Assembly (NCBI RefSeq): GCF_000373485.1
Contig: NZ_KB891590.1
Location: forward strand, 13,610 to 77,609
Origin: Dasania marina DSM 21967
GTDB taxonomy: Bacteria > Pseudomonadota > Gammaproteobacteria > Pseudomonadales > Dasaniaceae
Reading direction: 5' to 3'
Length of the DNA stretch: 64,000 bases
Made by a program: the position numbers and the translations under genes. Positions 43,251 through 63,596 of the stretch are shown here, one piece after another (within the stretch, counting starts at the first letter, position 1; each line of letters begins with the position of its first letter). The notes below the pieces were generated by a model, which was not told the DNA's origin, ran no database searches, and saw only the letters and a list, made by a program, of their open reading frames with translations.

Positions 43251-43838
43251 ATGTTTACACTAGCAGAACTACCCTATTCGGAAGACGCACTTAGCCCCCA
43301 TATAAGCCAACAAACCATCAGCTTCCACTACCATAAGCACCACCAGGGCTATGTCGATAAACTTAACCAAGCCTTGACGAAGGCTGATGCGCCTATGCAA
43401 GCTATGACACTAGAGCAGTTAATTAGCCATAGCGATGGTTCAATCTATAACTTGGCCGCACAGGTGTGGAATCATACTTTTTATTGGCAATCAATGTGCC
43501 CAAGCAACAACGGCAAACCTAGCGAGGCCTTGGCAAAAATATTGACAGAAAGCTTTGGCTCAGTGGATAGTTTTATAGAACAATTCACCGCTGCCGCCAC
43601 TCAGCAATTTGGTTCGGGCTGGGCATGGTTAGTAAAAAATAAAGATGGCTCATTAGCAATCACCTCCACCAGCGACGCCGTTAACCCGCTCAGCAATGGT
43701 CAACAACCCCTGATAACGCTAGATGTATGGGAACATGCCTATTACCTAGACTATCAAAATAAACGCCCCGATTATGTAACGAACTTTTTCGCTCACTTAA
43801 TCAACTGGGATTTTATAGAACAAAATCTTAATGCATAA
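43251..43838 (+). CDS. sodB: Iron superoxide dismutase
   Basis: 195 residues with TGGAGA upstream of ATG 43251. Metal ligands are in HYHKHHQGYVDKLN (His27 type), WNHTFYW (His) and DVWEHAYYLDY (Asp, His). QFGSGWAWL with Gln two residues before Gly favours the Fe over the Mn form. It detoxifies superoxide in the cytoplasm. On the opposite strand to the copper genes. A strong terminator follows. Confidence 0.95.
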   Translation: MFTLAELPYSEDALSPHISQQTISFHYHKHHQGYVDKLNQALTKADAPMQAMTLEQLISHSDGSIYNLAAQVWNHTFYWQSMCPSNNGKPSEALAKILTESFGSVDSFIEQFTAAATQQFGSGWAWLVKNKDGSLAITSTSDAVNPLSNGQQPLITLDVWEHAYYLDYQNKRPDYVTNFFAHLINWDFIEQNLNA

Positions 43839-43865
43839 TTCATGCACTTAGATACTGCACAAAAC

Positions 43866-43896
43866 AAAACGCCTAGCTAACCACTAGGCGTTTTTT
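43866..43896. terminator. Bidirectional terminator after sodB
   Basis: AAAACGCCTAG pairs with CTAGGCGTTTT around a short loop, followed by six T. It separates sodB from the convergent LysR gene. Confidence 0.9.
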
Positions 43897-43927
43897 CACT
43901 TTAGAAAACCAATTCAAAATAACACAA

Positions 43928-44848
43928 TTAACTTAGCAGTAAATTCCCCTGCCACTCTCCTTTTTGATGAACCTCTTTAACCGATTGTTTGATAATATCA
44001 ACGACAGCCATACCTGCTCTGGATAAAGTCCTATGCAGCGGAGAAATTAAATAAGCTTTCCTATAAATGGTCGGGTTTATAATACGCTGTGCTGTAAATT
44101 CGCCACCTTTAAGGCGATTAAAAAAAAGCGATGAGGGTATGATGACACTCCCAAATCCTGATTCAGCTAACGCTAAATCACCCATCGCAGAGCCAAGCCC
44201 TGGTACAATATTTAAGGACACTCCGGTTTCTTTTTGAAATTTTTCATAAGTCAGGTAGGCGGACGACTGATCTCGGTTCGAGATAATTGAATACTTAGCC
44301 AGCTCGCTAAACTCAACTGATTCTTGCTGAGAAGAACCTTTCCCAACTAAAAAAAACTCCTCTTCTATCAACGCATCACATTGGTAGCGCTGCTGATCTT
44401 TAATATCGAAAGTAATCATTAAATCGATTAAATCAACATCAAACAACTTTTGTAAAAAAGGCGTTTGCGAGTCGTCTAGTTCCACTTCTATTTCTGGATA
44501 TTCCTTGATAAGGGCTTTATAAATAGGCACGCCCAGCACATTAGAGACCCCCTGTGTACAGCCTATCCTCACCAAGCCGGAAGGGTTGCTATGAAAACTC
44601 TTAACAGAAGATTGGGCAGTATCGACCTGTTTCAAAATAGAATAGGCATATTTTAAAAAATGCTTACCTGGATCAGTGAGCTTAACCCCCCTACTATTTC
44701 TATCAAACAATTTCACATCAAGGCCATCTTCAAGGCTTTTAAGACTAAGACTCAACGCGGGGTGACTAAGATGCACCTTCTCACTGGCCACCCGCATGTT
44801 TTCCGCTTCAGCAATGGCGATAAAATGTCGTAATTGTCTTAATTCCAT
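43928..44848 (-). CDS. LysR-family transcriptional regulator
   Basis: 306 residues from ATG 44848 (MELRQLRHFIAIAEAENMR); the frame extends to 44899 without a better start. The N-terminal winged helix (RQLRHFIAIAEAENMRVASE, then HLSHPALSLSLKSLEDGLDVK and LFDRNSRGVKLT) is typical, followed by a periplasmic-binding-protein-like effector domain. It is divergent from the TonB-dependent receptor, so it is probably the regulator of the receptor-sulfatase locus. The effector cannot be inferred. Confidence 0.9.
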   Translation of the reverse strand: MELRQLRHFIAIAEAENMRVASEKVHLSHPALSLSLKSLEDGLDVKLFDRNSRGVKLTDPGKHFLKYAYSILKQVDTAQSSVKSFHSNPSGLVRIGCTQGVSNVLGVPIYKALIKEYPEIEVELDDSQTPFLQKLFDVDLIDLMITFDIKDQQRYQCDALIEEEFFLVGKGSSQQESVEFSELAKYSIISNRDQSSAYLTYEKFQKETGVSLNIVPGLGSAMGDLALAESGFGSVIIPSSLFFNRLKGGEFTAQRIINPTIYRKAYLISPLHRTLSRAGMAVVDIIKQSVKEVHQKGEWQGNLLLS

Positions 44849-45051
44849 GGTGCCTCGATGAGATTTTATAGAAACAAAGTGTTTTGCATAACTTACCACT
44901 CAATTAAGTATATTAAAATATATTTATACCAAGGTTCTTACTACAGTATTTAAAAGCTTAATAACAGCGGCTCGTCTCTACTGATAGGGAATGGTTAAAT
45001 AACCACAAATAAAATAATCAAACACCATAAACTGGTTAGGGGATAAAGCAC

Positions 45052-47398
45052 ATGACTATCAACAGCTATTTAGCTCATAACAATCGTATGTACAAACTCA
45101 TAGCAGCTATAGGGTTAGCTTCGCTATCAACCACAGCCACTGCAGCTACACTGGAAGAAGTTGTGGTTACCGCCCAAAAGCGATCTGAGTCATTACAAGA
45201 TGTAGGCGCAGCCGTGTCCGCCATGACTAGTGACGATCTCAACCGGCTCAATATTAAAAGCGGTCGGGATCTCTTTGATCGCCTACCGAATATATCACTG
45301 CAAACCAATGCCTCAGAATCACAGGCACAGGTATCTATGCGTGGCCTAAGCTTTTCAACCTTTAATCTGAATGCAGTTCAGCCTGTGGGCTTATTTCAAG
45401 ATGAAATTAATTTGAACTCACCTCAAGCTAGCGGCTTGTTTCTATTCGATTTAGAACGAATTGAAGTTGTGCGCGGCCCTCAAAACACACTGTATGGCCG
45501 CAATACCACCGGTGGCGCAGTTAACTTTATCAGTAAACGCCCCAAGGTAGGGTCTGGCACTACTGGTGACATCGCAGTCACTTATGGTCGCTTTAATCAA
45601 CTTGATTTCGACGCCGCCGTGGGTTTTGATCTGGGCGATACTGCTGCCGCACGTATTGCCGTTAACTCACGTGATAGAGATGGCATATTCGATAATAAGT
45701 TTACCGGCGATGATGACTCTGAACAGGACAAAAAGGCCATTCGAGCCCAGCTTGTATGGGAGCCATCCGATGAAACAGAAATACTTTTCAACTACCACTG
45801 GGGGCAGGTTGATGCCGACTCCCGCCGCATTAAAACTATTGGATTGCTAGACCCTAATAATATTGACGCCTCTACCGTGGACTTTAAGAACGGCTTAACT
45901 GGCAACTGTCCACTACCCGGCAAGGGTGACCTAGGTAGCGGCTGCGTCAGTGCAAATTGGGCCGGTGACCAGGGATATGCCGATACTGATGACTTTGATA
46001 TTAGCGCCGACCTAACCTCACCCATAGACAAAATAACCGATTGGGGAAGCTTCTTAAATATTACCCATGATTTCTCATCCTTTACGCTGACATCCATTAC
46101 AGGTTACAAAGAAAACGAATTTAGATTTGCTCATGATGATGATGCCTCACCCTTTACAGTTTACAGTTTATAATTTTTATCAAAATGCCGATCAGGAACA
46201 AATTTCACAAGAGTTACGCTTTTCTTCACCGGAAGATCAAGACACACGCTGGATAGCTGGACTTTATTATTTTAAAGAAGACCTAGACGCCGAAGTTATA
46301 ATTTCTTTACCGCAGGCTAGAGCCGGAATGGGAGGCGGCCGATCTTCGCGATTAATACAGTCGGATACTGTTTATTCTGGTTTTTCAGAATTCGAATGGG
46401 ATATTAACGATAAACTAACCCTGATTGTAGGTGGACGTTATTCAGAAGAGAAAAAAGACGGTAGCGGTGAGGTGATACGCACTCAAACTGCAGGTCTCGC
46501 CGCTGTCACTGATGGCTCTGATGGCCTGCGCTACCAAGATCTGCTGAACAATGGCGCAGAAATATTATTTCCCAAGTCAGACTTTAGTAAAACCTGGCGC
46601 GACTGGGGTGCAAAATTCGGACTCGAATATAAAATGCAAGATGACACACTAATCTACGCCAGTGCTTCACGCGGCATCAAAGCAGGTAGTTTTGCTACCG
46701 GACCTGCGATTATTGCCGGCGGAGGTCTTGATAAACCCGTTGATCCAGAAACCGTATGGGCTTATGAGGTTGGGGTTAAAACAGATTGGTTAGAGCGCAG
46801 CTTGAGAACTAATCTTGCTGTTTTTTACAACGACTACCAAAATCAACAACTGCAAACTTTCGTAATCATTGCGGGCGAGCAAACCGGCAACCTAGTCAAT
46901 ATTGACTCTTCTAGTACTGCCGGCGTAGAGCTTGAATTGAACTGGTTACCACAATCCGTAGAAGGTCTTAGTGTAGATGTAAATATGGGCTGGCTAACCA
47001 CCGAAATCAAAAAAGATGACACCACAGGTAATGATCTTGAAGGCAATAACCTGGTCAACTCACCAGAGCTGACCGCAACAGTCGTTATCAGGAAAGAGTG
47101 GGATGTGAATTGGACAGAGGGCGGAATCTTCTCAATACAGCTAGATGGTAATTACACCGCCGAAAGAGAATTTGATATCGGTAATAACCCGCTACTAACT
47201 GCCGACAGCTACACTATTTTTAATGCATCAGCATCCTATCAATTTGGTCAGGAGCAACAATATACTGCTTCAGTATGGGGTAAAAATATTACTAATGAAT
47301 TGTACTTCCAAAATATGGCCGAAGGCGTTTCCGGTGACATCCAAGCTTATATCAATAACCCTGCCAGCTATGGCGTAACCCTAAGCGCCTCTTTTTAA
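45052..47398 (+). pseudogene. TonB-dependent receptor frameshifted by a 7-bp duplication
   Basis: The first frame (45052-46173) has a signal peptide, a TonB box (LEEVVVTAQKR), the plug (RGLSFSTFNLNAVQPVGLF, ERIEVVRGPQNTLYGRNTTG) and the first barrel strands, then ends early. The second frame (from about 46150) continues the barrel, PFTVYNFYQNADQEQISQEL, to the terminal Phe at 47398. At 46156-46169 ACAGTTT occurs twice; removing one copy joins both frames perfectly into 779 residues. So the only lesion is a 7-bp tandem duplication. Followed by a terminator and a sulfatase gene; it would import a sulfated organic compound. Confidence 0.9.
46156..46169 (+). repeat. Tandem 7-bp duplication (ACAGTTT) in the receptor gene
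   Basis: Two adjacent copies of ACAGTTT. With one copy the receptor frame is open; with two it is shifted by +1. The same repeat structure is used by slipped-strand phase switches, but here only two copies are present. Confidence 0.9.
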
Positions 47399-47467
47399 AC
47401 TGGCCTTAAAAGCCCTCAAAGGCGAAAGGATAACCCACCGCCCTTGAATATCACTACTCCCTCTTCT

Positions 47468-47488
47468 GGCCCTTTGCGGGCCTTTTTT
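47468..47488 (+). terminator. Rho-independent terminator after the receptor gene
   Basis: GGCCC-TTTGC-GGGCC followed by six T. It sits within the frame upstream of the sulfatase and argues that the sulfatase starts after it. Confidence 0.85.
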
Positions 47489-47521
47489 AAAACGATCAGA
47501 CATCAATCTAGGAGATATTCT

Positions 47522-49210
47522 TTGGTGGCCCAGTTCGCAAAAAAAAACCTCTTTCGACTATCAATAGTTATAACTTTGGTGGCAGTCTCTTCCTGTAATC
47601 ATGCTGCGAGGGCTACCACTGCTCCCGCAACTGTACCAGTGCATGGATCACAACCGAATATAGTATTGATAGTCGTCGATGATATGGGTTATTCAGATAT
47701 AGGCAGTTTTGGCAGTGAAATCGACACACCTAACTTAGACAAGCTTGCCTATAAAGGAATAAGGTTTACCAATTTTCACGCCACCCCTATGTGCTCTACT
47801 ACCCGAGCAACATTGATGACAGGTATTGATCACCATCTTGCAGGATTCGGCAATTTTCTTGATGAAATAGCAGACAATCAAAAAGGAAAGCCTGGTTATG
47901 AAGGTTATTTACCCTCCGATAAAAGAACCATCGCCACACTATTATCTAAACAGGGTTACCATACATCTATGGTGGGAAAATGGCATTTAGGGGAAGCCGT
48001 TGAGCACGGGCCGGCTGCTAAAGGCTTTGATCGCTCCTTTGCTCTTATGGGCCCAGGCGGTAACCATTTTAACAACCTGAACTTTCTCCCTAAACCTCGT
48101 GAGGTCCATTATCTAGAAGATGGGCAACCTGCCAAATTGCCTGCAGGCAGCTACTCCTCTTATTTTTTTTCCGATAAGGCTAAAATCTATATAGACGAAT
48201 CTTTAGCGCAGCAGCGCCCGTTTTTTTCTTATTTAGCATTTACCGCACCACACGCACCACTGCAGGCTCCTAAAGCCGTAATTCAAAAGTATCGTGGAAA
48301 ATATGATCAAGGCTATGCGTCTTTACGCAACACACGCATGACTCGCATGAAAAAAATGGGGCTGATTGATAACAACACCAAAGCTTTTAGCCAAGTTCCA
48401 GATCTAACTCCTTGGAATGCCCTATCGACAAGTGAACAGCAAATAGAAGCACGAAAAATGGAAGTTTATGCCGCAATGATTGAAACCATTGATCATAGCG
48501 TAGGTGAACTTATCAGCTATCTGGAAAATAAAAATATATTGAAAAAAACCGTCATTATTTTCTTGTCTGACAATGGCGCTAGCGGCGTTGACCCGCTCAC
48601 GAAAATTGATTTTCGTCTATGGGCAGAAAACAACTTTAACAATGATCTTGATAATATCGGTAGTGCAACAAGCAATTCATTTCTTGGCCCTGGCTGGGCT
48701 AATGCAGTAAGCGCTCCGCTTAGAATGTTTAAGCGTTATATATCCGAGGGCGGGATAAGAACCCCAGCCTTTATCTGGAGCCCCATAGCTGACACGCACA
48801 GGACTATCAACCATAGTTTTGTGTCCATAAATGATATTTTTACAACCATCTTAGATATTGCCAATCCCCATGCAGTAAAAGCTAAGTCCTTTGCTGAAGC
48901 TGGCTACTTAGGAAAGTCATTACTGCAGGTAATAAGAGGAGACATAGACTATATTCATGATGACAATGCGGTTTATGGTTGGGAGTTATTCGGCTATCGT
49001 GCAGCACGTAAAGGCCCATGGAAAATTATTCATATGCCAGAACCTTATGGTAACGACAGCTGGCAACTTTATGATCTCAACAAGGATCCTGGTGAATTAG
49101 AAGACCTATCATTACAGCACCCGAAAAAACTGCAAGAGTTAATCAACTATTGGGAGCAGTATGCTATAGAAAATGGCGTTATCTTACCGAATAAGGTGTA
49201 CAATAATTGA
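47522..49210 (+). CDS. Lipoprotein sulfatase with atypical CSTTR motif
   Basis: The frame is open from 47444, but a terminator lies at 47468-47488. AGGAG at 47510 precedes TTG 47522 (or GTG 47525), giving 562 residues with a lipoprotein signal (SIVITLVAVSSC, lipobox Cys about residue 25). The sulfatase fold is complete: IVLIVVDDMGYSD (metal Asp pair), PMCSTTRATLMTG, KWHLGE and LSDNGA. The active Cys, converted to formylglycine in most sulfatases, sits in C-S-T-T-R, whereas the consensus is C-x-P/A-x-R. It would cleave sulfate esters at the periplasmic face. No dedicated activating enzyme is in the window. Confidence 0.85.
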   Translation: MVAQFAKKNLFRLSIVITLVAVSSCNHAARATTAPATVPVHGSQPNIVLIVVDDMGYSDIGSFGSEIDTPNLDKLAYKGIRFTNFHATPMCSTTRATLMTGIDHHLAGFGNFLDEIADNQKGKPGYEGYLPSDKRTIATLLSKQGYHTSMVGKWHLGEAVEHGPAAKGFDRSFALMGPGGNHFNNLNFLPKPREVHYLEDGQPAKLPAGSYSSYFFSDKAKIYIDESLAQQRPFFSYLAFTAPHAPLQAPKAVIQKYRGKYDQGYASLRNTRMTRMKKMGLIDNNTKAFSQVPDLTPWNALSTSEQQIEARKMEVYAAMIETIDHSVGELISYLENKNILKKTVIIFLSDNGASGVDPLTKIDFRLWAENNFNNDLDNIGSATSNSFLGPGWANAVSAPLRMFKRYISEGGIRTPAFIWSPIADTHRTINHSFVSINDIFTTILDIANPHAVKAKSFAEAGYLGKSLLQVIRGDIDYIHDDNAVYGWELFGYRAARKGPWKIIHMPEPYGNDSWQLYDLNKDPGELEDLSLQHPKKLQELINYWEQYAIENGVILPNKVYNN

Positions 49211-49328
49211 CTATATTAAATCTAACCGGAAACTATCAGCTTGGCCTATACTGACACAAACGCAAGCTATGTCTTATGGGCGATAGAGCAGATCAAACAT
49301 TAATGCAAACGTTGATAACAGCCTGCTT

Positions 49329-50228
49329 ATGTATTACTCCCAGAGTTTAATTTCTGGAGCGCTATTTATTATTTGCGCTGAATTTATGGCTGTTATCACC
49401 GGCGCACTAATAAAAATGGCTCACGACAGCCTCCCTATGGAGGCTATAGTCTTTTTTAGAAACCTCTTCATCTTATTAGCAGTCGCGCCACTGATAGTGC
49501 GCTTTAAAATAAATCACTTAAAAATAGCCGTTATCCAATGGCATATAGCTAGAGCTATTTTTGGATTGGGTGGTATCTATAGCTACATCTACGTTCTTTC
49601 AGAGCTAAAGCTCGTTAATGCCATGCTGCTGTTAACTATGTCACCTATTTTTATTCCTATTGCCGCCTTTCTTATTTTAGGTGAAACTATTAACCGCTGG
49701 ATATCGCTAGCTATTTTAATTGGTTTCTTAGGCATCATAGCCATTTTACAACCTGACGGTAGTACCAGTACCTATACGCTTATAGGAGTCGCTGGTAGTT
49801 TTTCTATTGCTTTAGGGCAAGTCATTATTCGCAAGTTATCGAAAACTGAGCCCGCCCAAAAAATCGTTTTTTATTTTGCTTTTTTCGCATCTATAGTCAC
49901 GGCCATACCGCTGACTTGGTCATGGCAGAGCCCAACACTATGGCAGTGGGGCTTATTAGTAGCGCTGGGGGGTTCAGCCGCGATAACACAACTCTTAGTT
50001 ACCCGAGGGTTTGCTTCGGCCCCGGCGTCACAGGTTGGTATTTTCACTTACTCCTCGGTGTTTTTAGCCGCTGTTACAGGGTGGCTCTTCTGGGGAGAAG
50101 TGTGGGATATTATTTCAGTCACGGGTGCAATACTCATCATAGCCGCAGGGCTTGTGGTATTGAGATACACAAGTGCAGAAAGACTAAAAAAGAGTAACAC
50201 CCACGACAGCGCATATGCAAAGGACTAG
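49329..50228 (+). CDS. EamA/DMT-family membrane exporter
   Basis: 299 residues with ten hydrophobic helices and two EamA repeats, typical of the drug/metabolite transporter superfamily. Conserved patterns: MEAIVFFRNLFIL in the first repeat, ILGETINRWISLAILIGFLG at its end, and FWGEVWDIISVTGAILIIAAG in the second. The substrate is unknown. It lies 118 bp downstream of the sulfatase in the same direction, so it may export a product of sulfated-compound metabolism. ATG 49329 is standard. Confidence 0.85.
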   Translation: MYYSQSLISGALFIICAEFMAVITGALIKMAHDSLPMEAIVFFRNLFILLAVAPLIVRFKINHLKIAVIQWHIARAIFGLGGIYSYIYVLSELKLVNAMLLLTMSPIFIPIAAFLILGETINRWISLAILIGFLGIIAILQPDGSTSTYTLIGVAGSFSIALGQVIIRKLSKTEPAQKIVFYFAFFASIVTAIPLTWSWQSPTLWQWGLLVALGGSAAITQLLVTRGFASAPASQVGIFTYSSVFLAAVTGWLFWGEVWDIISVTGAILIIAAGLVVLRYTSAERLKKSNTHDSAYAKD

Positions 50229-50229
50229 G

Positions 50230-50481
50230 GAGCACACGGCTCTGCCGCAGCCGATGACACATCATCAGCTGGCACGCCGATTTCCAAGCCCGCACGTTGC
50301 GCTTTGGCAAGGTACTGAAGTCGACATCTGGATTGGTATCCACTTCGTAAAACATATGACGAGTGACTTTGTCAATACCGCAATAGCTAAAAGTCCCCAT
50401 ATCCATATTGTTACTGATAGCCGCTTCGTAGCGCCGCTTGCCTTCAAAGGTACGCTGCGATGAGGCACACAAATGGTACAC
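50230..50481 (-). pseudogene. Frameshifted gene fragment truncated at a direct repeat
   Basis: On the minus strand, one frame reads TFEGKRRYEAAISNNMDMGT, YCGIDKVTRHMFYEVDTNPD, VDFS; then the sense continues in another frame as QYLAKAQRAGLEIGVPADDV, SSAAAEPCAP and a stop at about 50230. Both halves look like protein, so this is a frameshifted remnant of an unidentified gene. Its upstream end coincides with the 34-bp repeat at 50464-50497. Bases 50482-50991 hold nothing else except a copy of a dispersed motif near 50690. Confidence 0.5.
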
Positions 50482-50497
50482 TTTTGAGCAACCTACT
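50464..50497. repeat. 34-bp imperfect direct repeat, left copy
   Basis: Contains GTACACTTTTGAGCAAC (50476-50492). The right copy is at 55642-55675 with four mismatches over 34 bases. Together they bound a 5.2-kb block just upstream of dusA. Confidence 0.85.
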
Positions 50498-50991
50498 TTT
50501 ACTAACCCCTCAAACTACCTTGCTATAACCAACTAAAAGCGTAAAGGCCTCCTTCTCTTTCCTATAAATTTATATGTATCTAGAGAATTAGAACGCCATC
50601 GTTTGAAAAGCGCTGATATAAACTAATGCATCTGTAGTGGATTATACAGTGCGAAGGGATATCTCAGATGGAAAAGCCTAAAGCCCCCTTATATGCGTAA
50701 AGCGAACGGTAAATAAGACAAAAAATACGAAAAAAACGAGCCCCTAGGACTGCTGAGTGCCAAAAGATACCTATGAAACACTACTACACCAACGTTTGAT
50801 CTTGAGCCGCTCATCTTTAGTAAATCAGCCTGCCATGATACCCTTCCTTAGCTTTGGGCACTTTAAGACAAAATAATACTTTCGCGAGTTCGTGCATCAG
50901 CGATTTACTGATCCGACACAAAGCTAGGCAGTGATTAACTCACTCAAGTAGCAGGACTACGCCTGTATAACCCTTCTATGGAATTAAAATA

Positions 50992-51726
50992 ATGTACAGT
51001 ATTAGTCTTGTCAGTTTATCACTGGTTGCTGTTATCTTTCTCAGCCTTGTACATGTACTGGCTGACATGTTGCGATGGAAGCAACAACTGCCACAAAAAT
51101 ATTGGCTGTCATTCGCTGATGGTATTTCAATTAGCTATGTATTTCTTGGGTTGTTACCAAAAATAATCGAGGGTACCGCTGATATTCCTGATTCAATGGG
51201 CCCCATGGTTGCCATTTTAAAACACAATCCCTTTTTGCCATTACTGATCGGCCTTGTCTCATTCTATGGACTTGAGCGCCTAATAGAAAAACCGGCGACT
51301 GAGAATAACCCACAGCTATCGAACAGCTCCGAGATTCGGGTCTGGAGCCACCTGGCTTCATATGCACTCTATAAAGCAATTATCGGATATCTAATTGCAA
51401 AGATGAACGATCCCTTACTTATCGCCATTTTTGTTCTATCTATGGCCGTGCATTTTCTAGTAGTTGACTACCGAATGATGGAAATCCATAAAGGTGCCTA
51501 TCAGCGAGTTGGACGCTGGCTTTTGACCCTCGCGATTATCTTAGGTTGGGCTATCGGTATCACAACCGTTATCGCGCCCGTTGTAGTGACCTTATTACTG
51601 GCATTCGTGGCGGGCGGCATCGTGCTGGTTGTTCTTGAAGAAGAATTTTCCCGCGAACACCCTTCCTCGTTCCCGGCTTTTTTAGTTGCGGTTTTGGCCT
51701 ACATGGCTGTTCAAATCTCAATGTAA
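50992..51726 (+). CDS. ZIP-like membrane protein
   Basis: 244 residues with about seven hydrophobic helices. The last part (LLLAFVAGGIVLVVLEEEFS, then SFPAFLVAVLAYMAVQ) resembles the C-terminal helices of ZIP-type divalent metal transporters, and the loop contains few of the usual metal His residues. No strong diagnostic motif otherwise, so the name is provisional. It is preceded by a long gene-free region and is one of four genes in a block bounded by direct repeats. Confidence 0.6.
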   Translation: MYSISLVSLSLVAVIFLSLVHVLADMLRWKQQLPQKYWLSFADGISISYVFLGLLPKIIEGTADIPDSMGPMVAILKHNPFLPLLIGLVSFYGLERLIEKPATENNPQLSNSSEIRVWSHLASYALYKAIIGYLIAKMNDPLLIAIFVLSMAVHFLVVDYRMMEIHKGAYQRVGRWLLTLAIILGWAIGITTVIAPVVVTLLLAFVAGGIVLVVLEEEFSREHPSSFPAFLVAVLAYMAVQISM

Positions 51727-51913
51727 GATAGAGCTCTCGGGGGCCCTAAAGATGTTCATGAACCCTGTATAGGCTGATTATTTATGTCGTATTTTCTTGT
51801 TTAGCCGGATTAACAACAGCCGTATTTTAGAAAAAAATACGGCATATTTCGATCCCGTTAATATACGAAAACATATAAAATATTTTATTCGTTTTTGAAA
51901 AACGTGCAAGCGC

Positions 51914-52840
51914 TTAGTTCAAACAGTGTGAAATAGGCGCAATGGGTTCTGGGATGTTTTTATCGCCAAGAGCTTCCAATAAACTTATCTCAATGGTACG
52001 TGTCATGGCATGCAGTGGTAGATCGTTGGTCGACAACCCAAACGGTTCTTCCAGTTCTTCACTTAGCGCGTCTAGTCCAAAAAAGGTGTAAGCAACGACA
52101 ATGCAAAACAATGGGGTTGCCAACCCTTGAGAGGCGACAAGCCCAAAGGGTAGCATTAGGCAATACAGATAAGCTGTCCGTTGCACAAGCAGCATATAGG
52201 CGAAAGGCAGTGGTGTATTTTGGATTCGCTCGCAGGCCGCTTGCACGCCTGCCATGGAAGTGATGCGCTCATCAACACCCTGGATAAGAAAGTCAGAAAG
52301 CAGCAATTTGTGCCTACAGCTACCCAACTTTTTGCCTATCATCCGCAATAAGCTATCGGGTAAATTTTTCGCTTGCTCTAGTTGTTCAATATCCTCTACT
52401 TCAACGTATCGGCCTATGTCATCCCAGGGGTCACTTTTTCGAAGCTGGTGACGCAAGGCATGGCTGAAAGCAATAGTCAGGTTTACCAGACGCCGTTGAA
52501 CTTCTGGCGCGCCATCAAGGCTTGAGTCTATATACGATGTTGCCTGACGGGCGAGGCTTCGAGCGTCCACAATAAGCTGCCCCCATTGTTTTCTAGCCTC
52601 CCACCAACGATCGTATGCAGCGTTATTTCTAAAGCCAAGAAATAATGACAGCGCCACACCCAGCAAACCGAACGGCGCAAGTGTCTGCTGAGGAAATATA
52701 CTAGGGTAGTAAACGTGGGCTATAGCCACACCACCACCTAGTAACGCGACAAAAATAATTTGGGGCAGAATCGCTGGCACAATAGAGCCGCGCATTATAA
52801 AAAGTAGCTGCAACGCATTGGGTTTATTTCGGACTATCAC
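51914..52840 (-). CDS. Bestrophin-family anion channel
   Basis: 308 residues. The family signature GFRNNAAYDRWWEARKQWG follows the second helix, and the order of four membrane helices and cytoplasmic helical segments fits prokaryotic bestrophins (UPF0187). Known members are pentameric channels, some selective for cations, others for anions; which applies here cannot be read from the sequence. It starts at ATG 52840. Opposite direction to its neighbours. Confidence 0.85.
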   Translation of the reverse strand: MIVRNKPNALQLLFIMRGSIVPAILPQIIFVALLGGGVAIAHVYYPSIFPQQTLAPFGLLGVALSLFLGFRNNAAYDRWWEARKQWGQLIVDARSLARQATSYIDSSLDGAPEVQRRLVNLTIAFSHALRHQLRKSDPWDDIGRYVEVEDIEQLEQAKNLPDSLLRMIGKKLGSCRHKLLLSDFLIQGVDERITSMAGVQAACERIQNTPLPFAYMLLVQRTAYLYCLMLPFGLVASQGLATPLFCIVVAYTFFGLDALSEELEEPFGLSTNDLPLHAMTRTIEISLLEALGDKNIPEPIAPISHCLN

Positions 52841-53293
52841 TACAACCTCCGCTTAGTAAGAAGTGAGTATATGTTGGTAAGCACAAACGCCTCATTCGGG
52901 TCAATGGCCGTTTGCGGTGAAATAGTAGTAGTGGCTTGGAGTTGCAACACTAACATGATTGGCAGCCGCTGAGGAAAACGATCACCCTGTAAATCACTGC
53001 TATTCAAAGAGCATAGGCAGTATATGCATACTATTGTAGCCAACTTACCACAGCAAAATATTATGCCCCCCATTATGGTTGCTTTACATGGATTACCTAC
53101 TACAATTAATGAGCGAAATACATCTACCCACACCGAGAGCCTTTCTGGTTTTTAACGTCTTGCACCGGCACTGCCGAGCGTGAATGATGTTACGTTATAA
53201 CTATCGTCGGTGGACGCCTTCGTAAAGGTTTCTGTCGTTGTATATTTTCACTAAAGTGCAGTCCAGCAGGATACGCACAAAAGGAGAAAAATC
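52841..53293. other. Gene-free stretch before the GFA gene
   Basis: No supported gene. It ends with AAAAGGAGAAAAATC, a strong ribosome site for the next gene. Confidence 0.5.
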
Positions 53294-53731
53294 ATGACCC
53301 GTTCCTATACCGGTGGGTGCGAGCACGTTCATATGAAAGCGAAGGCAGAGCCTATCGACAATCACGTCTGTCATTGTAATGTTTGCAAAGGCGTAACTGG
53401 ACAGCAGACCACGCATGTGGCCTTTTTCAAACACGCCGATCTTTCGGCCGATCACCCCGAAAAAATGAAGCGCCAGCCGTTCAATAAGGACAACCCAAGC
53501 GGCCCACTCGAGCTTTGCACCTGTGCCGATTGTGGTGCCGCCCTAATGCTCGATGACAAACAAAAACGCATCCGCGTGGCAGTGCCAAACGTCATGGGCT
53601 ACAAAGACTCATTCCCCAAGCCCACTTATCACGCATTCTACGACACCTCAAAAGGCTACCCTAAGCCATCAGACGGCCGCCCGGTTTATGAAGGCCTGCG
53701 TCCTGAATTCGTTTGGCCTGAACCCGTCTAA
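53294..53731 (+). CDS. GFA-family (glutathione-dependent formaldehyde-activating) protein
   Basis: 145 residues with strong AAGGAG. The zinc sites of the GFA fold are present: GGCEHVH near residue 8, CHCNVC near 32, and CTCADCGA near 77. GFA proteins bind glutathione and are proposed to promote its condensation with formaldehyde; Gfa proper is about 190 residues, so this is a short relative. The following gene encodes the dehydrogenase of the same pathway, which supports this role. Confidence 0.82.
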   Translation: MTRSYTGGCEHVHMKAKAEPIDNHVCHCNVCKGVTGQQTTHVAFFKHADLSADHPEKMKRQPFNKDNPSGPLELCTCADCGAALMLDDKQKRIRVAVPNVMGYKDSFPKPTYHAFYDTSKGYPKPSDGRPVYEGLRPEFVWPEPV

Positions 53732-53932
53732 GCTGTCGGGTTTATCCTCGACTATACAGGGGTTCAGGAAACACTCTTTCCGCAGGTAAGTAGCGGATGG
53801 TCAATGGCTTTAATGAACCCCAGCCCCATTCTTGACTTCGGCACCGTCGCCCTTACCGGGAGGCTAACATGACCAATACTACAGGCACACCTAAGTTATA
53901 CACCCAATGAAATATCATTAGCTAAACAGTGA

Positions 53933-55072
<1,140 letters not shown>

Positions 55073-55534
55073 CCCTTGTCCTGCTGACCGCTAGTAAACT
55101 AATACTATGGGGGCAGCATTTTGAAGCCTTTCCCTAGCAATTCAAACTAAAGCGTTAATACAAGCTTTGGGAAATGGCATCAATAACACAGCCACCGCAG
55201 CTATTAAACGAAAAAATGTCTGAGCTGCACTAGCTTTCAGGCTTGAGCAGCTGCGCATTACCGCTGATATAGACGTCCACTATGGGCTGGCGGATTTTTA
55301 ATCGGTAAAGGCCTGCTTTGTTTCAACTTACACTATCTTTATTCAGTTTATTCCGCACATAAACGAAAGGGATGAAGTCCCGCTAACAGTGATTAATGTT
55401 TTACACAAATCTAATTAATCAGACCATTAATTCAGTGGTCAGGCAGCAATATAATCCGTAAAATATACGGCCGTAGCCTTTAAGCTTCAATCGTTTTCCT
55501 CCACCCACAAAAACCATAAAAAAGTTGTTAATTA
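55073..55534. other. Gene-free stretch downstream of frmA
   Basis: No gene supported on either strand. Base composition gets AT-rich toward 55530, where the dusA-like remnant begins. Confidence 0.5.
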
Positions 55535-55590
55535 TCAATGCGTTAGATAGATAACTCTGTTATGCCCCGCTGATAAACTGGTCAGACTAA
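55535..55590 (+). pseudogene. Decayed copy of the dusA 5' end
   Basis: Bases 55535-55590 (TTATCAATGCGTTAGATAG ... ACTGGTCAGAC) match the start of dusA at 55706-55765 (TTATCAATATGTTAGATAG ... ATTGGTCAGAC) at roughly three positions in four, including the codons for the CAPLMDW region. The ATG is lost and the frame has stops. This is what remains after integration into dusA, or after a partial duplication. Confidence 0.75.
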
Positions 55591-55641
55591 ACTCATTAGA
55601 ACTTGTATTCACTGGGCTGTAGAGGTATTGAAAATTATAAT

Positions 55642-61339: not shown

Positions 61340-62131
61340 TTAAGCAGCGGTAGCGATAACAACAGTACCTAACAAGATATCTACCGTATACAGCTGTTTA
61401 TAGATCTCTAGGCCACTGCTAACAATCTGCTCTGGGTTAGGGTGCTGCATCTCTAAGGCCAGTTGCAGCAACAAATCCCTGCCGTTGCGCTGCTGCGGGT
61501 TGTTATTAATTAGCTCTAGTAATCTGGCGGTAACCGCATTGGCCTCCATAAACTGCACCGCATCCTGTAGATTGCGATAAACCACTAAATAACTGGCCTG
61601 CTCGCTGGGCTGTTGGGGCTGATAATCCGGCCCTATCAAATGTACAGGGTATTGATAGGCCAAACTCCAAGCCAATGGCGACGCCACCGGACGCTGCGCC
61701 AGCCAGTCAGGCTGCTCGCTAATGCCTTGCTCTATAGCAAGCTGAGGCAGGTCATCTTCTGCCACATCCAGTGCCAGCTCCACCCATTCATAATGGGCCA
61801 AGGCTTGAATAAAAACGGGGTAAGCCTCCGCCGTTAAAATAACGGGGTTAGCCGCTAAGTAGCGCTGAAACTCTTGGCTGATTTCTAAAAAATAGGGGCT
61901 GTGGCAGCGATGTTCAATCATAAAGTCACGCACTAGCGCATGCCAAGCTTGATCGTTAATGACACTACGTAACACTGGAAAGGCGCCGCTGACAAAACCT
62001 TCAATATTGTTATAAAACAAGTCGCGATAAATATTTAAGCGCCGTTGCTCTATATTCTCAGGGGCAGAGGCCTGCTCGGGGTTACGTATATAGGCGGTGA
62101 ATTGATCGGTGGTTTGTTGCAGCGTGGCCAT
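61340..62131 (-). CDS. hvfC: HvfC/BufC-type DUF2063 protein
   Basis: 263 residues of the DUF2063 family (ENIEQRRLNIYRDLFYNNIE, AFPVLRSVINDQAWHALVRD, FLEISQEFQRYL). DUF2063 proteins are the partner of DUF692 enzymes (MNIO) and help recruit the precursor peptide. Its start ATG 62131 shares its first base with the stop of the DUF692 gene, so the two are translationally coupled. Third gene of an hvfABC/bufABC-like operon; transport and other later genes are not seen downstream. Confidence 0.87.
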   Translation of the reverse strand: MATLQQTTDQFTAYIRNPEQASAPENIEQRRLNIYRDLFYNNIEGFVSGAFPVLRSVINDQAWHALVRDFMIEHRCHSPYFLEISQEFQRYLAANPVILTAEAYPVFIQALAHYEWVELALDVAEDDLPQLAIEQGISEQPDWLAQRPVASPLAWSLAYQYPVHLIGPDYQPQQPSEQASYLVVYRNLQDAVQFMEANAVTARLLELINNNPQQRNGRDLLLQLALEMQHPNPEQIVSSGLEIYKQLYTVDILLGTVVIATAA

Positions 62132-63015
62132 TAGCCAGCCGCCTTGGCAGTGTTGCCCTGTTGAGCTTGGGCCTGCTGAGCCTGGCCCTGAAGAGCTTGT
62201 GCCTGTAACTGCCGAATGGTGGCCACTTCGGCCAATAGCTGGTCCATGGGCGGGAAGTTAAAATCGCGTTCCAACAATGTTGGTAGCACCCCCACCTGCT
62301 GGTAGGCCGCTTTCAATAAATCCCATACCGGGCCTATGACATCGGCACCATGAGTATCAACACGTAGATCCTCGGCCTCTTCAAAATGGCCCGCCACATG
62401 GATATAACTGGCGCGCTGCAGAGGCAGCTCGCTTAAAAACTGATAGGGATCGTAACCATGGTTAATACTGTTGACGTAGATATTATTCACATCTAACAAT
62501 AACTCGCAGTCGGCCTCGGCCATAACCGCACTAATAAACGCGCTCTCGCTCATGTGTTGGTCGGGGGCGCAATAATAGGAGGCATTTTCTAATACTAGCT
62601 TTTGCTCTAGCCTATCCTGCACTTCACCAATCCTAGCGGCCACATGTTTAACCGCCTCTTCCGTAAACGGGATGGGCATTAAATCGTATAAATGGCCACC
62701 GTCACCACAGTAGGTGAGATGCTCTGAATACAGGGGGCAGTCATATTGTTTGATAAACTGTTTGATACTATCGATGAGCTCAATATCTAAAGGGGCCGTG
62801 CCGCCGATATTGAGTGATAGTCCGTGCAAGTATATAGGGTAGCGTTCGGCTATAGCCTGAAACTGCTTACCCAAGCGACCACCCAAGCCTATCCAATTTT
62901 CGGGTGCCACTTCAAAAAAATCTAACTCACCGGCGGGTAAGCTTTGCAAAGAGGACATAATGTCCCTGCGCAAACCTAAACCCGCCAGTGCTACAGCTTT
63001 ATTAACTAAAGTCAT
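62131..63015 (-). CDS. hvfB: DUF692 multinuclear iron oxidase (HvfB/BufB, MNIO)
   Basis: 294 residues with a TIM-barrel look. His, Glu, Asp metal-ligand regions are seen in order: HGLSLNIGGTAPL, LYSEHLTYCGDGGHLYDLMP, VLENASYY, LLLDVNNIYVNSINHGYDP, and HVAGHFEE, then DTHGADV. MNIO enzymes use two or three iron atoms to modify Cys residues of precursor peptides, for example to oxazolone/thioamide or thiooxazole. Start ATG 63015 lies 12 bp after the stop of the precursor gene. The C-terminus is a Gln/Ala-rich tail. Confidence 0.9.
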   Translation of the reverse strand: MTLVNKAVALAGLGLRRDIMSSLQSLPAGELDFFEVAPENWIGLGGRLGKQFQAIAERYPIYLHGLSLNIGGTAPLDIELIDSIKQFIKQYDCPLYSEHLTYCGDGGHLYDLMPIPFTEEAVKHVAARIGEVQDRLEQKLVLENASYYCAPDQHMSESAFISAVMAEADCELLLDVNNIYVNSINHGYDPYQFLSELPLQRASYIHVAGHFEEAEDLRVDTHGADVIGPVWDLLKAAYQQVGVLPTLLERDFNFPPMDQLLAEVATIRQLQAQALQGQAQQAQAQQGNTAKAAG

Positions 63016-63027
63016 TACTGCTAGTGC

Positions 63028-63381
63028 TTATTTCTCGCCACACTTGCCTTCTTTAGTTTTTTCGCCACATTTACCTTCTTTGGCTTTTTCACCGCACTTG
63101 CCTTCTTTGGCTTTCTCGCCACACTTGCCTTCTTTGGCTTTCTCGCCACACTTGCCTTCGCCGCACTTACCTTCTTTTTTAGCTTTCTCGCCGCATTTAC
63201 CTTCACCACACTTACCTTCGGCATCTGCGTAGTTAGCAAGGTCATAGCCGCTGGACAATTGGTTGGCAGCAAATGGATTCACTTCAGCAGATGCTAAAGG
63301 TGAAATCGCCGTTGCTAAAAAAGCCGCACCTAATGCAGCAGCTAAAGGCTTTTTGTTTATAGTAGATTTTGAGGTAGACAT
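63028..63381 (-). CDS. hvfA: HvfA/bufferin-type RiPP precursor with eight EGKCG repeats
   Basis: 117 residues from ATG 63381 (MSTSKSTINKKPL), with AGGAG upstream; the frame extends to 63426. A Sec signal peptide (PLAAALGAAFLATAISPLASA) is followed by a short conserved segment (ANQLSSGYDLANYADA) and eight EGKCG units with Cys58, 63, 73, 78, 87, 96, 105 and 114. The same pattern occurs in copper-induced HvfA of Haemophilus and related bufferins, whose Cys residues become copper-chelating heterocycles. The Cys-rich part spans residues 55-117, so most of the mature chain is repeat. First gene of the three-gene operon. Confidence 0.88.
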   Translation of the reverse strand: MSTSKSTINKKPLAAALGAAFLATAISPLASAEVNPFAANQLSSGYDLANYADAEGKCGEGKCGEKAKKEGKCGEGKCGEKAKEGKCGEKAKEGKCGEKAKEGKCGEKTKEGKCGEK

Positions 63382-63434
63382 AGTAGCTCCTAGTATTGTA
63401 TTTCTATTTATCAGTATTAACACCACAGATTAAG

Positions 63435-63596
63435 CATACGGCTTAGTCCCTGTTATCGCCACCACAGTGTAGCTAATTTACACCGCAGCTCAAATACCAG
63501 CGCTAACTCACATGCTCAAAAATAACACAAGCCATACTGAATCGTGCAGTTATGACCCAAGCCCCGACTACAAGTTTCACACCAGCCTAAAAATAA
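63435..63596. other. Intergenic region upstream of hvfA
   Basis: Should hold the hvfABC promoter. I see no clear -10/-35 pair or known metal-regulator box that I can defend. Confidence 0.35.

Follow-up and report, generated by a model that had tools for sequence, protein, structure and literature searches.

An HvfABC operon of the EGKCG (oxazolin/captophorin) kind with an unlinked hvfX gene in Dasania

In the window analyzed here, a 64,000-nucleotide stretch of the Dasania marina DSM 21967 genome taken at its full length, we found an HvfABC operon of the EGKCG kind that very probably makes a Sec-exported, Cu(I)-binding 5-thiooxazole peptide and whose HvfX is unlinked (we place the probability of this reading at roughly 0.87). 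The direct basis is gene content, family membership, conserved residues and co-occurrence among genomes; the chemistry, the Cu(I) binding and the localisation are put forward by analogy with homologues. Family membership of the operon is firm, and judged by its sequence the locus is an ordinary EGKCG (oxazolin/captophorin) HvfABC operon in the genus Dasania, a kind already known. It represents a further case of a widespread copper-peptide system with an unsettled natural role, and the main text of PMC12452194 makes no mention of Dasania. Two additions came out of the comparison: HvfX tends to accompany HvfC class-wide even where the two are unlinked, and in marine Gammaproteobacteria mlaA is repeatedly found after hvfC. 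The most useful leads are the mlaA gene behind hvfC and the unlinked hvfX. Published systems are cited here from PMC13097082, PMC12538549, PMC13419390 and PMC12452194. The features are as follows (window coordinates except for hvfX).

63028..63381, minus strand: hvfA, precursor of 117 aa, ATG at 63381; NF050137 43.3 bits (cut-off 19.5)
hvfA residues ~1-32, putative Sec signal, judged by eye; residues 35-46, NPF..L..GY segment; from residue 55, eight EGKCG
62131..63015, minus strand: hvfB, MNIO (DUF692) of 294 aa; NF003818, PF05114
61340..62131, minus strand: hvfC, DUF2063 plus NGO1945-type C-terminal domain (RRE partner), 263 aa; NF050145, PF09836, PF22106
60519..61259, minus strand: mlaA, outer-membrane lipid-asymmetry lipoprotein; PF04333 252 bits; 80 bp after hvfC
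63387..63391, minus strand: Shine-Dalgarno-like AGGAG before hvfA, read from the sequence; conserved in the sister species
63466..63493, minus strand: candidate hvfA promoter TTGAGC-16-TACACT, lying 85 to 112 bases upstream of the ATG; conserved in the sister species
63467-63483: GTGTA-N7-TACAC, overlapping the candidate hvfA promoter
G000:C3:60277-60795 (L111:8155-8820): hvfX (DoxX family), 217 bits (cut-off 80); not adjoining hvfABC

The three genes form one row on the minus strand, from 63381 down to 61340. The initial annotation had correctly given 12 bases between the hvfA stop codon and the hvfB ATG, but it had placed hvfB and hvfC one base apart, whereas base 62131 is common to both (TAATG) and the genes overlap by one base. 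Its description of a 117-residue precursor with eight EGKCG motifs and Cys spacings of 5, 10, 5, 9, 9, 9 and 9 residues was confirmed from the sequence. The 27-bp and 15-bp DNA repeats that it named were both found as tandem arrays (27 bp × 4.8 and 15 bp × 2.1), together with an additional array of 45 bp × 2.0. When the eight EGKCG units were compared, 4 of the 15 base positions proved variable, every one of them third-position and silent, suggesting that the repeat is maintained as protein and not as DNA. The N-terminus of HvfA carries KK, a hydrophobic stretch and an ASA site, all judged by eye, and the aligned relatives look much the same in this part; the product had been called secreted, for which Sec-exported to the periplasm is the better wording. 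No export or regulatory gene is adjacent, as had been stated, the flanks being mlaA, to which the initial annotation had not referred, and a frame cut by the window end that had no Pfam match. Structure prediction of HvfA was of low confidence (mean pLDDT 45.6, pTM 0.12) and contained no strand or helix long enough to report, which leaves a beta-helix unsupported, and this candidate was dropped.

Directly after the putative HvfA signal peptide lies the NPF..L..GY segment (window 63244-63279), a pattern matched by 54 of the 66 precursors from the window and its relatives. The segment is possibly a docking site for HvfC, and we keep it as a lead but do not claim it, because FonA requires no single pre-core position (PMC13097082).

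While HvfA exceeded the cut-off of the repeated EGKCG domain model NF050137, it remained under that of the narrower equivalog model NF050188 (37.3 bits, cut-off 95), and the precursor is therefore filed in the broader EGKCG family and not as an HvfA equivalog. HvfB scored 426.4 bits with NF003818 (cut-off 360) and 341.6 bits with PF05114, and HvfC scored 306.2 bits with NF050145 (cut-off 142), the Pfam assignments of enzyme and partner agreeing with those of NCBIfam. With the HvfA domain, HvfB and HvfC models all over cut-off, the term ‘HvfABC type’ in the initial annotation was appropriate. The methanobactin MbnB model TIGR04159 gave HvfB 48 bits, under its cut-off of 325. The hvf locus holds the single MNIO-family match and the single EGKCG-model match of the genome. 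None of the 14 control genomes had an EGKCG-model match; these included Caulobacter vibrioides, which is at odds with the earlier statement that EGKCG precursors occur in Caulobacter.

Among the known systems compared, MmrABC (bulbicupramide) of Microbulbifer has the same set of precursor, MNIO and DUF2063 genes, with 5–8 EGKCG motifs in MmrA across strains (PMC12538549), and the M. variabilis locus (L032) further shares the NPF..L..GY segment in its precursor and mlaA downstream of hvfC. It differs in its Cys spacing (10, 10, 5, 10, 10 in L032), and the product has been characterised for Microbulbifer, that of Dasania being predicted from its genes. HvfABCX (oxazolin) of nontypeable Haemophilus influenzae has the same HvfA-domain, HvfB and HvfC families and EGKCG motifs, and its Sec signal has a putative counterpart in Dasania, but there hvfX lies inside the operon (PMC13419390) and HvfA has six Cys in three AEGKCGEGKCG units. 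The Dasania precursor also differs in scoring below the equivalog cut-off. The captophorin systems FonABC (fontiphorin) and NgoABC (gonophorin) likewise combine an MNIO, a DUF2063 partner and EGKCG repeats; FonA has seven modification sites as against eight Cys in Dasania, and 5-thiooxazole has been demonstrated for fontiphorin and is predicted for Dasania.

The initial annotation had proposed comparing precursor repeat numbers among relatives, and such a comparison revealed wide variation in both number and spacing. KCG precursors were identified at 65 of the 80 related loci, with a median of 8 motifs and a range of 3–16 when motifs were counted as K/S/R-Cys-Gly; the remaining 15 loci had no KCG precursor by this rule, and contig ends may account for some of them. 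Mixed single and double motifs were common, and in 13 of the 65 loci at most half of the motifs were in doublets, as in the window (4 of 8). The polymer with two spacing classes suggested in the initial annotation gained no support. The 9-residue spacing was rare (3 of 65 loci, including the sister species), as were runs of at least three equal spacings other than 5 (also 3 of 65). The sister species (G001) has DNA identical to that of Dasania sp. GY-MA-18, L009 falling inside L012, and its precursor has 10 motifs spaced by 5, 10, 5, 10, 5, 10, 5, 9 and 9 residues. Motif number and spacing so appear to drift among relatives, and the successive 9-residue units seem to have arisen by local expansion of a type already present in the genus. 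Up to 58 Cys have been reported in Pseudoalteromonas piscicida (PMC12452194). We also observed a precursor with a different repeat motif in Pseudomaricurvus alcaniphilus (L019, 3477-3914), which has ten Cys with consecutive 10-residue spacings but just two KCG.

The solved structures closest by sequence were 3BWW for HvfB (E 1e-86) and 3DEE for HvfC (E 6.6e-12), both of which are also named in PMC13097082. HvfB residues N177, D220 and H222 were identical in 80 of 80 relatives; through the 3BWW alignment, and assuming a one-residue shift between 3BWW and HvfB, they were mapped to site-3 residues N175, D242 and H244 of the published HvfB (PMC13419390). That enzyme has a mixed-valent diiron cofactor and requires HvfC, and these three site-3 residues are needed for its activity (PMC13419390). 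At its C-terminus (window 62131-62205), the HvfB of the window has a Gln/Ala-rich tail that is encoded by 15-bp repeats and is longer than in the sister species.

From these homologues we propose that HvfA would be synthesised with its Sec signal and that HvfC would dock its N-terminal part onto HvfB, which would act as an iron-dependent oxidase, taking four hydrogens from each Lys-Cys to form a 5-thiooxazole. Up to eight 5-thiooxazoles could arise per HvfA, with an expected mass shift of -32.25 Da. The modified peptide would then pass to the periplasm via the Sec machinery, where the thiooxazole sulfurs would bind Cu(I), most likely for copper buffering or sequestration; HvfX, a membrane protein and the usual fourth part, would be supplied from elsewhere in the genome. 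In fontiphorin, 5-thiooxazole forms with a loss of 4 H per Lys-Cys; oxazolin has been reassigned to 5-thiooxazole, the class has been named captophorins, and both fontiphorin and gonophorin bind Cu (PMC13097082). All six of the six Cys of MmrA were modified in the Microbulbifer strain tested, and the excised modified MmrA peptide binds Cu(I) (PMC12538549). By homology to these products (PMC13097082, PMC12538549), copper binding by the Dasania peptide is likely, and the earlier suggestion of a Cys-modifying MNIO with a copper-binding product gains support in the same way. Several points speak against our preferred reading: the low equivalog score of HvfA, the 12 HvfC genomes of the class sample in which no HvfX exceeded its cut-off, the undetected expression of the Microbulbifer genes with or without copper and the only slight protection that they gave in E. 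coli (PMC12538549), the lack of a recognized inducible promoter and, lastly, the placement of four of the eight Cys in 9-residue units instead of 5-residue doublets. Given that a one-repeat FonA peptide stayed unmodified in vitro (PMC13097082), these units might be poorly modified, although MmrA with one of two Cys replaced by Ala still lost 4 H (PMC12538549), which qualifies this concern. The two Dasania precursors, with 8 and 10 motifs and differing shares of single and double motifs, form a natural pair on the modification of single EGKCG motifs.

The hvfX gene was absent from the hvfABC operon, where mlaA follows hvfC, and was located on a different contig of this draft assembly. It is preceded there by genes that we take to be prfA-, prmC- and moeB-like, and the moeB-like neighbor was seen in 4 of the 5 other family loci compared. 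Between hvfX and the moeB-like gene, two short frames look by eye like a broken sensor/GGDEF gene. Of the 10 family genomes, 8 had HvfC as well as HvfX over cut-off, never at the same place; the other two, one of which is 64% complete, had neither over cut-off. In a class-wide sample (200 genomes requested, 185 obtained; proteins counted solely when over cut-off), HvfX was present in 53 of 65 genomes with HvfC as against 7 of 120 without it, a difference for which the Fisher test takes no account of relatedness; 12 of the 65 HvfC genomes had no HvfX over cut-off. Among the 53 genomes with both, the two genes lay within 10 kb in 39 and farther apart or on different contigs in 14, different contigs of a draft genome being counted as not linked. 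HvfX travels with HvfC class-wide even when unlinked, which argues for HvfX as a working part of the pathway, and on balance the counts support that HvfX belongs to the system, linked or not. The H. influenzae HvfX is described as DoxX-like and uncharacterised (PMC13419390).

The large copper cluster that the initial annotation had noted at 24-43 kb of the window is genuine: among ten frames scanned, a Cu-translocating P-type ATPase, a CusA/CzcA-type RND pump and a CopA-type multicopper oxidase were over their subfamily cut-offs. Its presence raises the alternative that the operon is a copper detoxification unit, induced by copper and wired to this cluster, which we regard as unlikely. The cluster is situated ~18 kb from hvfC in the window, the sister Dasania (G001) has a shorter version (oxidase, MerR-type regulator and P-type ATPase) at a distance of ~6 kb from hvfC, and excess copper is reported to induce such pathways often (PMC13097082). 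On the other hand, four family genomes (G002, G004, G005 and G007) carry hvfABC yet lack any match to the multicopper oxidase of the cluster, and in a genome of another genus of the family (G003) the hvf-to-tal block goes on without the cluster, so that the hvf operon is seemingly independent of it. A special partnership between the two, including the earlier idea that the product complements the cluster, is not supported. The window's best matches to a CueR-like pattern, searched on one strand, had 3 mismatches and none was upstream of hvfA, and MmrA-C were undetected in Microbulbifer at 0, 0.1 and 0.2 mM added CuSO4 (PMC12538549). In G003, a different multicopper-oxidase-domain protein with TSP3 and dockerin-like stretches was found ~8 kb beyond hvfC. 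The ~12 kb that separate the copper cluster from the tal-hvf block of the window (43251-55600) had no blastn match at that place in the sister species.

The region upstream of hvfA is conserved in the sister Dasania. The candidate promoter has 8 of 12 consensus matches by hand and is absent from the hits of our promoter scan, which had a threshold of 9 and returned sites no more numerous than in shuffles. Upstream regions were obtained for 63 of the 66 precursors, the window included, and GTGTA-N5-9-TACAC was found in 2 of the 63, both from Dasania; the wider GTGTA/TACAC element, searched with up to 3 mismatches allowed, occurs once in the genome. A copper operator was rejected as a candidate, since the CueR-like and palindrome searches yielded no regulon and no inducible promoter was recognized. 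The label ‘copper-responsive’ given in the initial annotation gained no support from these searches.

A Cu(I)-binding product could also serve copper uptake, as a chalkophore like methanobactin, instead of protection; the Microbulbifer authors were hesitant about a protective role (PMC12538549), but PMC13097082 links relatives to excess copper and oxidative stress and neither flank of the operon encodes a recognizable receptor, which makes this reading very unlikely. We give still less weight to a silent or relic operon, for which the undetected Microbulbifer products could be adduced: the purely silent variation of the repeat units, the conserved iron-site residues and the joint retention of the operon and hvfX across 8 of the 10 family genomes all oppose it. 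The initial annotation had also called the operon ‘bufferin-type’, and the bufferins Buf1 and Buf2 (BufABC) do share an MNIO with a DUF2063 partner, a Sec signal (putative in Dasania) and a copper link with it. Their precursors belong to other families, however, and the BufB maturase model NF050167 matched HvfB at 266.4 bits, below its cut-off of 310. Because the HvfB and HvfC models were exceeded, the precursor matched the EGKCG model, and Pfam gave no model over cut-off on the precursor, with DUF2282 absent, a bufferin operon proper (Buf1 or Buf2) is mostly refuted by the model scores and is scarcely credible.

The mlaA gene downstream of hvfC is the only match in the genome and is possibly part of the same operon as hvfABC. 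In the 80 related loci, a co-oriented mlaA was detected downstream of hvfC in 33, an hvfX close to hvfC in 35 and both in 2, so that 31 of the 33 mlaA loci had no nearby hvfX; some loci end shortly after hvfC, where mlaA could be missed, and 77 reach more than 700 bp beyond it. The gaps between the aligned hvfC and mlaA stretches ranged from 34 to 2240 bp and were shorter than 450 bp in 24 of the 33. In the class sample, where a place for MlaA was entered for 53 of the 65 HvfC genomes (G015 has MlaA, its place not being among the matches listed), mlaA was within 3 kb of hvfC in 3 of 53, including the present genome, and all three have hvfX elsewhere. Within ~3 kb in the 33 mlaA loci, a response-regulator gene followed at 22 loci and a STAS gene at 16, and neither was found in the five Kangiella mlaA loci. 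The recurrence of these genes after mlaA suggests that an inherited neighborhood may explain the adjacency of hvfC and mlaA, and this fit, together with the rarity of the adjacency class-wide, led us to demote functional coupling of hvfC and mlaA to a minor hypothesis. A functional hvfABC-mlaA operon, in which copper-peptide production would be co-expressed with MlaA and HvfX would come from a second locus, is doubtful and in our view quite unlikely; if true, it would tie metal stress to envelope repair. MlaA and VacJ are absent from the main texts of the MNIO papers compared, and a literature search for MNIO/DUF692 with MlaA/VacJ gave no paper with both kinds of term among the matches listed. 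On a quick HvfB tree with six long end branches, explaining the mlaA label takes 5 changes or more, of which starred branches force at least 3; with the mlaA-only and hvfX-only loci alone, 3 changes were counted.
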